DNA of 25,925 bases from positions 1-25,925 of IMG/VR virus record IMGVR_UViG_3300030090_002921, one strand, 5' to 3'. The translations under genes were made by a program, and so were the position numbers. This document shows positions 3,521-20,918 of the stretch, piece by piece. Numbering within the stretch: position 1 is the first letter of the stretch; each line of letters starts with the position of its first letter. The stretch comes from a virus. The notes below the pieces were generated by a model, which was not told where the DNA came from, did not search any database, and saw only the letters and a list, made by a program, of their open reading frames with translations.

Positions 3521-3559
3521 GGGGGCATGGCGGAATCGGTAGACGCACGCGACTTAAAA
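3521..3559 (+). other. Candidate attP core: 5' half of a tRNA-Leu(UAA) gene
   Basis: The sequence reads as the 5' half of a bacterial tRNA-Leu: acceptor strand GGGGGCA, D-arm with GGCGGAATCGGTAGACGC, anticodon-stem strand CGCGA and loop CTTAAAA carrying anticodon TAA. After the loop it departs from a tRNA, as the expected TCGCG partner strand is missing. A truncated tRNA-Leu identical to the host gene next to the integrase is known in cyanopodoviruses and is taken to be the integration site. Because the 5' half is present, recombination would rebuild a complete tRNA-Leu on the phage-promoter side, while the other junction keeps only a 5' half. Confidence 0.85.
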
Positions 3560-3606
3560 AGGCGTGTTTTTACCATTCCGCTAGTGGATGAATACAGGAC
3601 AAAAAG

Positions 3607-17736: not shown

Positions 17737-17886
17737 ATGGCTAAACCTGGACTTTATGCAAACATCCACGCTAAGCGCAAACGCATTGCTGCTGGCAGTG
17801 GTGAGAAAATGAGAAAGCCTGGAAGCAAGGGTGCACCTACTGCAGCCAACTTCAAGCGGTCAGCTAAAACTGCAAAGAAAAAGTAA
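17737..17886 (+). CDS. Small basic protein (49 aa), common in marine phages
   Basis: The peptide starts MAKPGLYANIHAKRKRIAAG and ends AKTAKKK, with 14 or more Lys/Arg in 49 residues. The GSGEKMRKPGSKGAPT centre is Gly/Pro rich and likely disordered. I recall near-identical small proteins in cyanophages and pelagiphages, but no function. It follows the 19-residue gene after 2 bases and is the last gene before the psbA leader. Confidence 0.7.
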   Translation: MAKPGLYANIHAKRKRIAAGSGEKMRKPGSKGAPTAANFKRSAKTAKKK

Positions 17887-17902
17887 CAGCTAAATAGAAT
17901 AA

Positions 17903-17921
17903 GGGAGGTGCAATTCCTCCC
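17903..17921 (+). promoter_or_regulatory. Hairpin in the psbA leader
   Basis: GGGAGG (17903-17908) pairs perfectly with CCTCCC (17916-17921) around a 7-base loop. No T tract follows, so it is a poor intrinsic terminator; it may be a processing or stability element at the start of the 107-base region before psbA. The rest of that region shows AGCC-AGCCA-GGCT as a second small hairpin (17930-17942) and no clear promoter or Shine-Dalgarno site. Confidence 0.4.
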
Positions 17922-17993
17922 CTAGCTCTAGCCAGCCAGGCTCTAAATGGTCTTACTTACTGATTACAGAACGACAATGCACTATTACTTTTG

Positions 17994-19073
17994 ATGACCA
18001 CTGTACTAACTAAACAACAACAACGAAGTAACTGGGATGAGTTTTGCTCTTGGGTTACTTCTACAAACAACCGACTATACGTCGGCTGGTTTGGTGTCCT
18101 TATGATTCCAACCCTGCTGGCAGCTACTACCTGTTTCATTATTGCCTTCATTGGCGCACCACCCGTAGATATCGATGGAATTAGAGAACCAGTTGCAGGA
18201 TCTCTCCTGTACGGAAACAACATTATTTCAGGTGCCGTCGTACCCAGCTCGAACGCAATTGGGTTACATATGTACCCAGTGTGGGAAGCCGGTTCGCTGG
18301 ACGAATGGCTTTATAACGGAGGCCCTTACCAGCTTGTCGTGTTCCACTTCCTCATTGGCATCTTCTGCTACATGGGTAGGGAGTGGGAACTCAGCTATCG
18401 ATTGGGAATGAGGCCCTGGATCTTTGTTGCATACTCAGCTCCGGTTGCTGCTGCAGCCGCGGTTTTCCTTGTCTACCCGTTTGGGCAGGGCAGTTTTTCA
18501 GACGGCATGCCTCTTGGCATTTCCGGTACGTTCAATTACATGTTCGTCTTTCAGGCTGAACATAATATCCTTATGCATCCATTCCATATGTTGGGTGTTG
18601 CCGGCGTTTTTGGTGGGGCTTTGTTCTCTGCTATGCATGGCAGTCTTGTCACCAGTTCCCTGGTTAGGGAGACGACCGAAACAGTTTCTCAAAACTATGG
18701 GTATAAGTTTGGGCAAGAGGAAGAGACATACAACATCGTAGCTGCACATGGATATTTTGGTCGTCTTATTTTTCAGTACGCTTCTTTTAATAACAGCCGC
18801 AGTCTCCACTTCTTCTTGGCTTCATGGCCAGTCGTGGGGATCTGGTTTACCGCCCTCGGCGTCAGCACCATGGCGTTCAACCTCAACGGATTTAACTTCA
18901 ATCAATCAATCGTCACCCGAGATGGTCGAGTGGTTAATACGTGGGCAGACCTATTGAATCGTGCTGGTCTTGGTATGGAAGTAATGCACGAACGTAACGC
19001 ACATAACTTCCCACTTGATTTGGCATCAGCTGAGACTACACCTGTCGCACTGACTGCACCATCCATTGGTTAA
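17994..19073 (+). CDS. psbA: Photosystem II D1 protein
   Basis: A full-length 359-residue D1, the reaction-centre subunit that carries electron transfer from water to plastoquinone in the thylakoid. Key residues are at canonical numbers: Y161, H190, H198 and P680 ligand region, H215 and H272 (iron), S264 (QB pocket), H332, E333, H337, D342 (manganese cluster), and A344 where CtpA cuts before [15 protein letters not shown]. Residue 130 is Glu, the high-light D1 type. Phage copies replace photodamaged host D1 during infection. Start ATG 17994 was chosen over TTG 17991. It comes after hli, as usual in cyanophages, and lies between scaffold and capsid. Confidence 0.99.
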
Positions 19074-19091
19074 TTAAACGTCCGTTCATCT

Positions 19092-19256
19092 ATGTTTGAC
19101 ATCAAAATCGACGACAACGGAGCACGGATAATCCGTGATGCTCTTAGGGAATACAAAAGAAGATGGTCCGGTGGTCACCCACAAGAACAGATTGACATTG
19201 AGTTCCTAGAGATGCAGTTCAATCGTATGGTTTTGGAGTCAACCTTAGACGCATGA
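19092..19256 (+). CDS. Small hypothetical protein (54 aa)
   Basis: The frame opens 18 bases after the psbA stop region and encodes MFDIKIDDNGARIIRDALRE followed by a second helix (DIEFLEMQFNRMVLESTL). It looks like a short two-helix protein; similar ones occur in cyanophage genomes near psbA in my recollection. A perfect repeat CACGGAT-A-ATCCGTG lies inside its 5' part (19123-19137). Confidence 0.6.
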   Translation: MFDIKIDDNGARIIRDALREYKRRWSGGHPQEQIDIEFLEMQFNRMVLESTLDA

Positions 19257-19305
19257 CATGAGATGACATGGAACGGGGTCTCTCATTCTTCTTAAGGAGG
19301 AAACC

Positions 19306-19368
19306 ATGCAAGCAAAACGTCAAGTACGTCTTGTCTATCGCGGTGTTCCATACACCCGAAACAAGTGA
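19306..19368 (+). CDS. Tiny DUF4278-like peptide (20 aa)
   Basis: ATG 19306 is preceded by AAGGAGG at an 5-base distance, one of the strongest ribosome sites in the window, so translation is likely. The peptide MQAKRQVRLVYRGVPYTRNK contains L-V-Y-R-G-V-x-Y, the core of DUF4278 peptides found in cyanobacteria and their phages. It is shorter than most members. Its last codons form the 5' strand of the tRNA-like structure that follows. Confidence 0.6.
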   Translation: MQAKRQVRLVYRGVPYTRNK

Positions 19369-19407
19369 TCTGGTGATGAAAGAGGGGTTCGATTCCCCTC
19401 CTCACTA
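19364..19407 (+). ncRNA. tRNA-like acceptor/T-arm minihelix 1
   Basis: GAGGGG (19382-19387) pairs with CCCCTC (19395-19400) around TTCGATT, which fits the T-loop consensus TTCRANY. The outer AGTGA (19364-19368) pairs with TCACT (19402-19406). The two stems could stack as in a tRNA acceptor-T arm, with 13 unpaired bases in place of D and anticodon arms. A similar structure is found 250 bases later. This shape is a minimal RNase P substrate, so an mRNA processing role is possible, but unproven. Confidence 0.5.
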
Positions 19408-19450
19408 TTGGCATTGGGTAAACCTTTGCTGTATTTAATTTAAAAATTCT

Positions 19451-19615
19451 ATGCATAAGAGAGGACACACAGGAAGGCAACCCCAGAGAAAACATGCTTC
19501 TTACGCACAAAACTTTATAGAAGGATACTTAAATCGTACAGGTAGGCACACGCCACAAGCAGCGACAAAACTAGCAAAAAGGTTGAGCAAACATCAAAAC
19601 AACCAATACACCTAG
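19451..19615 (+). CDS. Small basic protein (54 aa)
   Basis: ATG 19451 opens a 54-codon frame beginning MHKRGHTGRQPQRKHASYAQ and ending SKHQNNQYT, very rich in Arg, Lys, His and Gln. The centre FIEGYLNRTGRHTPQAATKLAKRLSK is helical. Ribosome site is weak. It lies between the two tRNA-like elements, with its stop codon inside the second. Unknown function; such basic proteins may bind nucleic acid. Confidence 0.5.
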   Translation: MHKRGHTGRQPQRKHASYAQNFIEGYLNRTGRHTPQAATKLAKRLSKHQNNQYT

Positions 19616-19653
19616 CAGATGGTGAAGAGGGGGTTCGACTCCTCCTCCTGCTC
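19614..19653 (+). ncRNA. tRNA-like acceptor/T-arm minihelix 2
   Basis: GAGGGGG (19627-19633) pairs with CCTCCTC (19641-19647, one G-T) around loop TTCGACT, again a T-loop. The outer AGCAG (19614-19618) pairs with CTGCT (19648-19652). The loop side is shorter (8 bases, containing GGTGA as in element 1), and the 3' flank TATGGCACTGAG resembles the 3' flank of element 1 (TATTGGCATTGGG). The outer stem differs in sequence but keeps pairing, which suggests selection on structure. Confidence 0.5.
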
Positions 19654-19688
19654 TATGGCACTGAGCCCGTACGCGGACACCTCAGCTG

Positions 19689-19700
19689 CCGTCTAGACGG
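19689..19700. repeat. Perfect 12-bp palindrome before the capsid gene
   Basis: CCGTCTAGACGG is a perfect palindrome. Its first half contains CGTCTAG, the same heptamer that is repeated around the att site. It lies right after a small hairpin (CTGAG 19661-19665 with CTCAG 19681-19685) and 73 bases before the capsid start. It may be a protein-binding site or part of an RNA fold. Confidence 0.45.
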
Positions 19701-19731
19701 TGGGATAGACCACAAATACAATTAAATAAAA

Positions 19732-19772: not shown

Positions 19773-20918
19773 ATGGCACAACAACTTACTTCTCCTAAGG
19801 CACCACAGGTAATCCCTGGTGCCAGTAATCTGGCCGGTGGCCAGACACCTACAGTCGACCAACGTCGCGCCCTATATCTCAAGCTATTCAGTGGCGAGAT
19901 GTTTAAAGGCTTCCAGCATAATGCTATCGCCCGCGACATGGTTATGAAGCGTACCTTGAAGAACGGCAAATCATTGCAGTTCATCTATACAGGTCGCACC
20001 CAGGCGGAATATCACACCCCCGGCAACCCAATTTTGGGTAACTCGGATGGTGCACCGCCCGTGGCAGAGAAGACTATTACGGTCGATGATCTGCTAATCA
20101 GTTCAGCCTTTGTATACGATCTCGATGAGACTCTTTCTCATTACGATCTGCGTTCTGAGATCTCTCGGAAAATCGGCTATGCCTTGGCTGAAAAATATGA
20201 CCGTCTGATCTTCCGTGCTATTGCACGTGGAGCCCGTTCTGCTTCCCCTGTTAGTGCAACTAACTTTGAGGAGCCCGGCGGTACTCAGATCCGTGTTGGT
20301 TCTTCTACCAACGAATCTGATGCATTCTCTTCTTCCGCATTGGTCGCTGCTTTCTATGACGCAGCTGCTGCTATGGATGAGAAGGGTGTGTCTGGTGATG
20401 GCCGTGTGGCTGTCCTCAACCCCCGTCAGTACTACGAACTGATCCAAGCTGTTGGTTCCAACGGACTCGTAAACCGTGACGCCCAGGGCACTGCTCTGCA
20501 AGGCGGCAACGGCATCATCGAGATCGCTGGTATCAAGATCTACAAGTCCATGAACATCCCGTTCCTGGGTAAGTACGGAACCAAGTACGGCGGCACTACT
20601 GGTCAAACATCTCCTGGCAATACCGGTGACTTCATCGGACCTACCCTGGAAGATGCTTCCGGTGCTTCTACTGGTATCAACAATGACTACGGTACTGCTA
20701 CTGAATTCGGTGCAGTGTCTGCTGGTCTTATCTTCCAGCGCGAAGCTGCTGGTTGTGTTGAGGCAATCGGTCCTCAAGTCCAAGTCACCAGCGGAGATGT
20801 GTCCGTGATTTACCAGGGAGACGTAATCCTGGGGCGCTTGGCCATGGGGGCGGACTACCTGAACCCTGCTGCAGCTGTTGAGCTGTATGTGGGTGCTTCT
20901 GCTCCTTCCGTCTTCTGA
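19773..20918 (+). CDS. Major capsid protein, T7 gp10-like
   Basis: A 381-residue HK97-fold shell protein, a little longer than T7 gp10A (345). Recognised by the N-terminal region VDQRRALYLKLFSGEMFKGFQHNAIARDMVMKRTLKNGKSLQF (about 27-70), the E-loop/P-domain pattern VDDLLISSAFVYDLDETLSHYDLRSEIS, and GRVAVLNPRQYYELIQ (about 209-224), conserved among podovirus capsids. Codon use is smoother and more GC rich than in the tail genes, as expected for the most abundant virion protein. It is preceded by a structured leader and followed by a strong terminator. No slip site for a 10B-type frameshift was seen. Confidence 0.96.
   Translation: MAQQLTSPKAPQVIPGASNLAGGQTPTVDQRRALYLKLFSGEMFKGFQHNAIARDMVMKRTLKNGKSLQFIYTGRTQAEYHTPGNPILGNSDGAPPVAEKTITVDDLLISSAFVYDLDETLSHYDLRSEISRKIGYALAEKYDRLIFRAIARGARSASPVSATNFEEPGGTQIRVGSSTNESDAFSSSALVAAFYDAAAAMDEKGVSGDGRVAVLNPRQYYELIQAVGSNGLVNRDAQGTALQGGNGIIEIAGIKIYKSMNIPFLGKYGTKYGGTTGQTSPGNTGDFIGPTLEDASGASTGINNDYGTATEFGAVSAGLIFQREAAGCVEAIGPQVQVTSGDVSVIYQGDVILGRLAMGADYLNPAAAVELYVGASAPSVF

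Follow-up and report, generated by a model that had tools for sequence, protein, structure and literature searches.

Mitochondria use tRNAs as punctuation marks between the genes of long transcripts, where they define mRNA ends (Ojala, 1981, as reviewed in PMC4394434), and in plant mitochondria tRNA-like structures are found at the ends of mRNAs (PMC10941002). A comparable placement of tRNA-like folds between genes characterizes the viral DNA analyzed here, a stretch of 25,925 nucleotides (the window) that contains psbA and the major capsid gene and is part of a T7-like cyanophage genome. We found no description of such elements in cyanophages or other phages in the open-licence literature and no Rfam family for them; none of 4227 Rfam models reaches its gathering score for the mini-elements or for the leader behind them, and the only models above cut-off nearby in relatives are those for true tRNA, the Glutamine-II riboswitch, and abiF.

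An earlier note on this sequence had placed two T-loop elements at 19364-19407 and 19614-19653, and we find both exactly there, with the stems and loops it gave. Element 1 (19364-19407, + strand) pairs AGTGA (19364-19368) with TCACT (19402-19406) as its acceptor, has a T-stem GAGGGG/CCCCTC with the T-loop TTCGATT (19388-19394), ends in the discriminator A19407, and carries a D-arm of 3 bp, ATC-TGGT-GAT (19368-19377), that includes the GG which contacts the T-loop in tRNA. Element 2 (19614-19653, + strand), which occupies the standard slot immediately 5' of the capsid leader, pairs AGCAG (19614-19618) with CTGCT (19648-19652), has a T-stem GAGGGGG/CCTCCTC with the T-loop TTCGACT (19634-19640), and keeps only a D-loop remnant, TGGTG, which retains TGG without a true D-stem. 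A third, element 0 (17885-17928, + strand), was overlooked in that note; it precedes psbA, pairs AGCTA (17888-17892) with TAGCT (17923-17927), has a T-stem GGGAGG/CCTCCC with the T-loop TGCAATT (17909-17915) and a D-loop, UAGA, that lacks GG, and has counterparts in 14 other psbA leaders. Judged by comparison with relatives, all three are mini-tRNAs, composed of an acceptor stem, a small D-arm, and a T-arm. The note was right that they lack an anticodon arm but not that they lack a D-arm, which is present in element 1, survives as the TGG remnant in element 2, and exists in small form in most copies of the mini-element.

A strict scan of the window, requiring a T-loop, a T-stem of at least 5 pairs, and an acceptor of at least 5 pairs, returned these three elements on the + strand and none on the - strand, against 0.08 matches per dinucleotide shuffle; chance is a poor explanation of the three. 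A covariance model built from relatives recovered element 1 at E = 3.2e-13 and element 2 at E = 5.4e-05, both of which were in its training set, and element 0, which was not, at E = 2e-06. Single-sequence folding is uninformative here, with folding energies at z = -0.8 to -1.9, and in the minimum-energy fold of element 1 TCACTA pairs with TGGTGA; it is comparative evidence rather than folding energy that decides for AGTGA/TCACT as the outer pairing. ARAGORN calls no tRNA within the window, and we rejected canonical tRNA as a description of the elements, which do not form a cloverleaf and have no anticodon arm, true tRNAs being confined to the slots of some relatives.

The elements are set tightly among genes. 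Element 0 lies upstream and element 1 downstream of psbA, which encodes the photosystem II D1 protein (17994-19073, + strand; PHROG 182, E = 3.8e-197), and the major capsid protein gene (19773-20918, + strand) lies downstream of element 2. As previously noticed, the elements near the capsid gene begin at or next to stop codons: a small ORF ending in ...VYRGVPYTRNK (19307-19368, + strand) has its TGA stop (19366-19368) within the acceptor strand of element 1, and a 54-aa ORF between elements 1 and 2 (19451-19615, + strand), without a PHROG match, has a TAG stop (19613-19615) that overlaps the acceptor strand of element 2. A separate feature of this region, at 19079-19290, is a Glutamine-II riboswitch-like motif, CGUUCAUC...GACGCAUGA...GGAACGGGG, apparently split by another 54-aa ORF (19092-19256, weak PHROG 628 match) inserted into its hairpin loop; P-SSP7 and other relatives carry an intact Glutamine-II riboswitch before the same small YRGVxY ORF.

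Covariation among relatives supports the fold. Across 67 mini-elements taken from relatives, the acceptor helix lies at the right position in 54 (27 different stem sequences; 7 expected when the 5' side is shuffled), bearing out the claim that the outer stems differ in sequence and still pair, and compensatory changes are abundant in the acceptor and present in the T-stem as well; the acceptor pairing of element 1 survives sequence change in this way. In a plain MAFFT alignment the covariation score is 0.321, against 0.150 for shuffled sequences and 0.09-0.16 with the partner slid. MAFFT puts some of the acceptor strand in the wrong place, with 61.6% of acceptor cells paired on A1, and acceptor pairing was therefore also counted sequence by sequence.

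The strongest evidence for a reduced-tRNA fold is covariation at the elbow, where the D-loop and T-loop of tRNA touch (18-55 and 19-56). Elements with a TTC T-loop (TTCRA) carry GG in the D-loop and those with TGC (TGCRA) carry AG, a rule obeyed by all 62 sequences; in tRNA numbering, G18-U55 is swapped for A18-G55 while G19-C56 is unchanged. The elbow state switches 17 times on the capsid tree, which was built by a quick method and may be blurred by recombination, and in independent pairs on supported branches the D-loop followed the T-loop in 10 of 10 cases (p = 0.002). Although the rule ([AT]GG in the linker) was picked after inspecting the sequences, 11 of 11 copies outside the capsid slot, read by eye and not used to derive it, agree with it, and a blind automatic D-loop caller recovers the same association (20/28 versus 1/39, p = 9e-10), less cleanly because it sometimes picks the wrong hairpin. 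The elements are thus tRNA-like, with a maintained D-loop/T-loop contact, rather than the bare acceptor-T minihelices proposed earlier.

In relatives, the slot before the capsid leader is occupied by one of a few alternatives. Within about 230-260 nt, 224 of 233 leaders contain either a T-loop element (76 cases) or an alternative hairpin (148 cases), in a collection enriched for both occupants, since some loci were fetched by leader or hairpin patterns, so that these proportions are not natural frequencies; the T-loop type appears in 1.3% of random windows. In the alternative hairpin, a stem of freely varying sequence but maintained pairing (115 contexts) carries a 15-nt loop, CACCUCAGAGUCGGA, that is nearly invariant, and the capsid tree shows at least 26 exchanges between the two types. 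One exact form of this hairpin, GAGGCACCTCAGAGTCGGACCTC, has no match in 84,980 prokaryote genomes, so none of the sequenced hosts supplied that form. In some contigs a second CACCUCAGUGUCGGA hairpin, with a long hairpin (AUUCCCUUGACC...GGUCAAGGAAU) behind it, stands before an unnamed gene (MAFNSNT.../MSSFNLD...; L186:1060 in reverse strand numbering, L201:122, L121:374).

True tRNAs can fill the slot as well. NATL1A-7 has an annotated tRNA-Gly(UCC) there, loci L094 and L129 carry tRNA-Gly(UCC), and L065 and L066 have a tRNA call, which ARAGORN names tRNA-Leu in L065; in that locus the tRNA is preceded, at a distance of 5 nt, by an abiF RNA match (2761-2797; 47.8 bits, cut-off 37). The tRNA-Gly genes all lack an encoded CCA, and their discriminator directly precedes TTGGC, the start of nearly every capsid leader, so that normal tRNA 3' processing would yield a capsid mRNA beginning at the leader. 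Intermediate forms occur too: L127, L142, and L201 keep an anticodon arm and have a degenerate D-arm, and S-RIP1 has an extra hairpin at the would-be anticodon-arm position. The psbA slot shows the same range, with a mini-tRNA in the window and other relatives, the alternative hairpin in L259, L291, and L298, and a true tRNA-Ala(CGC) in L134; the recurrence of these three exchangeable occupants at two unrelated leaders speaks for a general signal.

The 3' flank that elements 1 and 2 share, TAT(T)GGCA(T/C)TG, is real, as the earlier note reported, but we read it as the beginning of a distinct leader, conserved and structured, that is complete behind element 2 and shortened behind element 1. On the evidence of covariation, and of RNAalifold, which recovers the same helices unguided, the capsid leader is an RNA structure. 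Its hairpin P2 (19655-19690, + strand) pairs GGCA (19657-19660) with UGCC (19687-19690) and CUGAG with CUCAG around an inner hairpin, CCG-UACG-CGG (19667-19676); relatives show 42 different inner hairpins, all paired, and the outer fourth pair is U-A in 55, A-U in 41, and G-C in 10. The general layout is UUGGC-W...GCC-[UACG-capped hairpin]-GAYACC...W-GCC, then a palindrome, then GUGG...CCAC. The conserved palindrome, CCGTCTAGACGG (19689-19700), and the hairpin GUGG-gauaga-CCAC end the leader (19689-19713, + strand), a unit recovered in at least 120 stretches among the matches listed and by RNAalifold. In other phages the palindrome is CCGTCATGACGG; it stays perfect when the central CTAG becomes CATG or TCGA, and others have the near-palindromic GAACCGGTTTGG, a pattern of conservation that points to a dyad in the DNA or a kissing dimer of the RNA more than to a simple hairpin. 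In L178, L183, L200, and L292 much longer stretches, apparently longer hairpins, replace the UACG hairpin between the same flanks. Comparison with relatives' leaders suggests that the hairpin behind element 1 (19408-19430, + strand; GCA UU GG / CC UU UGC, loop GUAAA) is a degenerate copy of the capsid leader hairpin. The psbA leader behind element 0 (17929-17993, + strand) has an AGCC-AGCCA-GGCU hairpin and UGGUCUUACUUA.

Copies of the element occur both in relatives and elsewhere in the same genomes. Together with the compensatory changes, they contradict the two sequence-level outcomes that the earlier note had named as refuting its reading, a lack of such changes in related phages and a lack of homologous elements elsewhere. 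In complete genomes, intergenic sense-strand copies lie at 602 and 1007 in P-SSP7, 2728 and 19865 in Syn5, 1015 and 1468 in S-TIP37, 957 and 1353 in S-SBP1, 23743 in NATL1A-7, 12630 in P-GSP1, and 43107 and 43744 in NATL2A-133; S-TIP37 and Syn5 have a published recombination system (PMC8776855). The early, psbA, and capsid copies are all intergenic and in coding orientation. An adjacent hairpin follows 1-4 nt downstream in 10 of the 11 non-capsid copies tested (for example CAGCU AUU GCAUCAC-ACUGA-GUGAUGC in NATL2A-133), a part played by P2 in capsid leaders, and hairpins of comparable strength occur at 0.2-16% of random positions; a P-SSP7 copy at 630 is without a clear adjacent hairpin. In P60 the capsid gene is preceded by a plausible copy that includes a D-arm plus an additional arm, at a covariance-model E of only 0.66. 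The coding strands of T7 and of a 42-kb part of Pelagibacter phage HTVC008M contain no such element.

The sequences themselves present the fold, the elbow contact, the fixed slot, the sense orientation, the downstream hairpin, and the replacement by true tRNAs, and we propose, with a probability of roughly 0.6, that the elements are tRNA-mimicking punctuation marks in polycistronic phage mRNA, with cleavage inferred. Host tRNA-processing enzymes would recognize the elbow and the acceptor end; genes for RNase P and for RNase Z are both present in cyanobacteria (PMC10989914), and the D/T-loop region is recognized by RNase P enzymes of varied architecture (PMC12630138). RNase Z, cutting after the discriminator base and thus 3' of the element, would be the most likely enzyme, with predicted cuts at 19407|19408 for element 1, near 19653/19654 for element 2, and near 17928 for element 0. 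We favor it over RNase P because a 5' cut at the acceptor would remove the stop codons of the small upstream genes in the window, whereas a 3' cut spares them and puts the hairpin at the new 5' end; this choice, the more likely one, rests on the stop-codon overlap seen here, which is absent in some relatives. After one such cut, the upstream mRNA would end in a tRNA-like structure, which might carry a CCA tail and withstand 3' exonucleases, and the 5' end of the downstream psbA or capsid mRNA would lie beside a hairpin that could shield it from 5'-end-dependent decay. Where a true tRNA fills the slot, its excision is needed for tRNA function. Separation of psbA and capsid mRNAs, one of the roles suggested earlier, remains the best explanation, together with a tRNA-like 3' end, and RNase Z is a more likely enzyme than the RNase P raised in the earlier note.

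The hairpin with the 15-nt loop may be an alternative signal with the same role in other phages; it is not obviously tRNA-like, and its equal function is suggested by interchange alone. We offer more tentatively, with the odds somewhat against it, the broader idea that marine T7-like cyanophages might use two structurally unrelated, interchangeable cut signals genome-wide, with the host tRNA-processing enzyme that acts on the mini-tRNA also accepting the CACCUCAGAGUCGGA hairpin, as a substrate of a new, non-tRNA kind.

The elements could instead act as a structural barrier rather than a cut signal, with RNase E or another enzyme cutting nearby single-stranded RNA, the fold stopping 3' exonucleases, and the next hairpin protecting the 5' end. 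Such a barrier would share the same position and the same paired-hairpin logic, would accommodate a plain stem with a fixed loop as the alternative occupant, and fits the rise of host RNase E expression during P-SSP7 infection (PMC9692554; PMC10989914). We nevertheless consider it rather unlikely, as it would require neither an elbow contact kept through at least 10 independent switches nor replacement by tRNAs, and the nearly invariant 15-nt loop of the alternative hairpin suggests recognition. The small RNA might instead be the product itself, a released mini-tRNA that mimics tRNA or acts as a decoy, with host tRNA-binding proteins or defence nucleases among the conceivable targets. A tRNA-like fold with an elbow contact suits that role, and the nearest matches in Rfam, all weak, are to mascRNA and to tmRNA T-arms; however, copies within one genome differ in sequence, the acceptor sequence is unconserved, the elements hold a fixed place ahead of the leaders, and a non-tRNA hairpin can stand in for them, which makes a decoy improbable.

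We give little credence to a DNA element, promoter or terminator, for the phage RNA polymerase. The leader motif TTGGC...GCCCGTA superficially resembles the Syn5 promoter sequence ATTGGGCACCCGTAA, characterized previously (PMC3950665) and the only characterized promoter among the relatives considered here, and the perfect palindrome in the leader could also belong to such an element. Yet the sequence of the inner hairpin varies freely while its pairing is preserved, the stems are not followed by a U-run, and the promoter-like motif is repeated nowhere else in P-SSP7, S-TIP37, S-SBP1, or Syn5 (four leaders tested), whereas the real Syn5 promoter, a positive control, repeats perfectly; a phage RNA polymerase promoter was rejected because the motif does not recur at several genome sites. 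The known Syn5 promoter has just two sites, 4929 and 44797, both distant from the capsid gene, and together with the lack of repeats this suggests that capsid mRNA probably arises by read-through and processing. Nor is there much left of the idea that the elements lack any function and are remnants of phage tRNA genes or of attachment sites. A series from full tRNA-Gly through the forms with degenerate D-arms to the mini-tRNA could be read as decay, but compensatory changes are kept in acceptor, T-stem, and elbow, and one slot stays fixed across divergent genera; we rejected this reading as largely refuted by covariation and regard it as scarcely credible. The likely attachment site lies elsewhere, at 3527-3580 of the window, where a tRNA-Leu-like 5' segment, GGCGGAATCGGTAGACGCACGCGACTTAAAA, downstream of the integrase gene is probably the attP site known from related phages.

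Prochlorococcus and Synechococcus phages are among the most abundant marine viruses, and tRNA-style punctuation bears on how a T7-like phage with few promoters sets psbA and capsid mRNA levels separately. If cutting does take place at the elements, bacteriophages would share with mitochondria a control of operons through tRNA mimicry, and phage late mRNAs would depend on host tRNA maturation. The series from a full tRNA to a 40-nt mini-tRNA, with its repeated switches of a tertiary contact, would also constitute a natural experiment on the minimum recognizable tRNA.

Their covariation-supported tRNA-like fold and their intergenic, sense-strand placement make the elements, on sequence evidence, candidate members of the class of tRNA punctuation and tRNA-like mRNA-end signals. 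Unlike their mitochondrial counterparts, the phage elements belong to a lytic bacteriophage, lack an anticodon arm, have a hairpin attached directly downstream, and are interchangeable with a non-tRNA hairpin, and their cleavage is a prediction. The mammalian mascRNA of MEN beta likewise terminates a long RNA with a tRNA-like fold and is cut by RNase P and RNase Z; its family (mascRNA-menRNA, RF01684) was rejected as an identity for the phage elements, the match scoring 18.5 bits (E = 0.58), short of the cut-off of 42.5, with no sign of common descent. The tRNA-like domain of tmRNA also has an acceptor and a T-arm, a D-loop of reduced size, and no anticodon arm, but the phage elements have neither a tag reading frame nor pseudoknots, and tmRNA, permuted or ordinary, which a weak Rfam hit had suggested, was rejected since only 17 T-arm positions match, at 8-14 bits, below cut-off. 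Viral tRNA mimicry is familiar from the 3' tRNA-like structures of plant viruses such as TYMV, which are processed by RNase P; those lie at genome 3' ends and use an acceptor pseudoknot, whereas the phage elements are internal, are built of ordinary helices, and belong to a DNA phage. In their stack of about 12 bp of acceptor and T-stem with a T-loop they resemble the acceptor-T minihelices that are minimal substrates of RNase P and RNase Z, and differ from these models in being natural and repeated and in a D-loop contact maintained by covariation. The late mRNAs of T7, a relative within the Autographiviridae, are similarly polycistronic with structured capsid mRNA ends; T7, however, has the phi10 promoter at its capsid gene, uses RNase III sites, and carries no such element on its coding strand.
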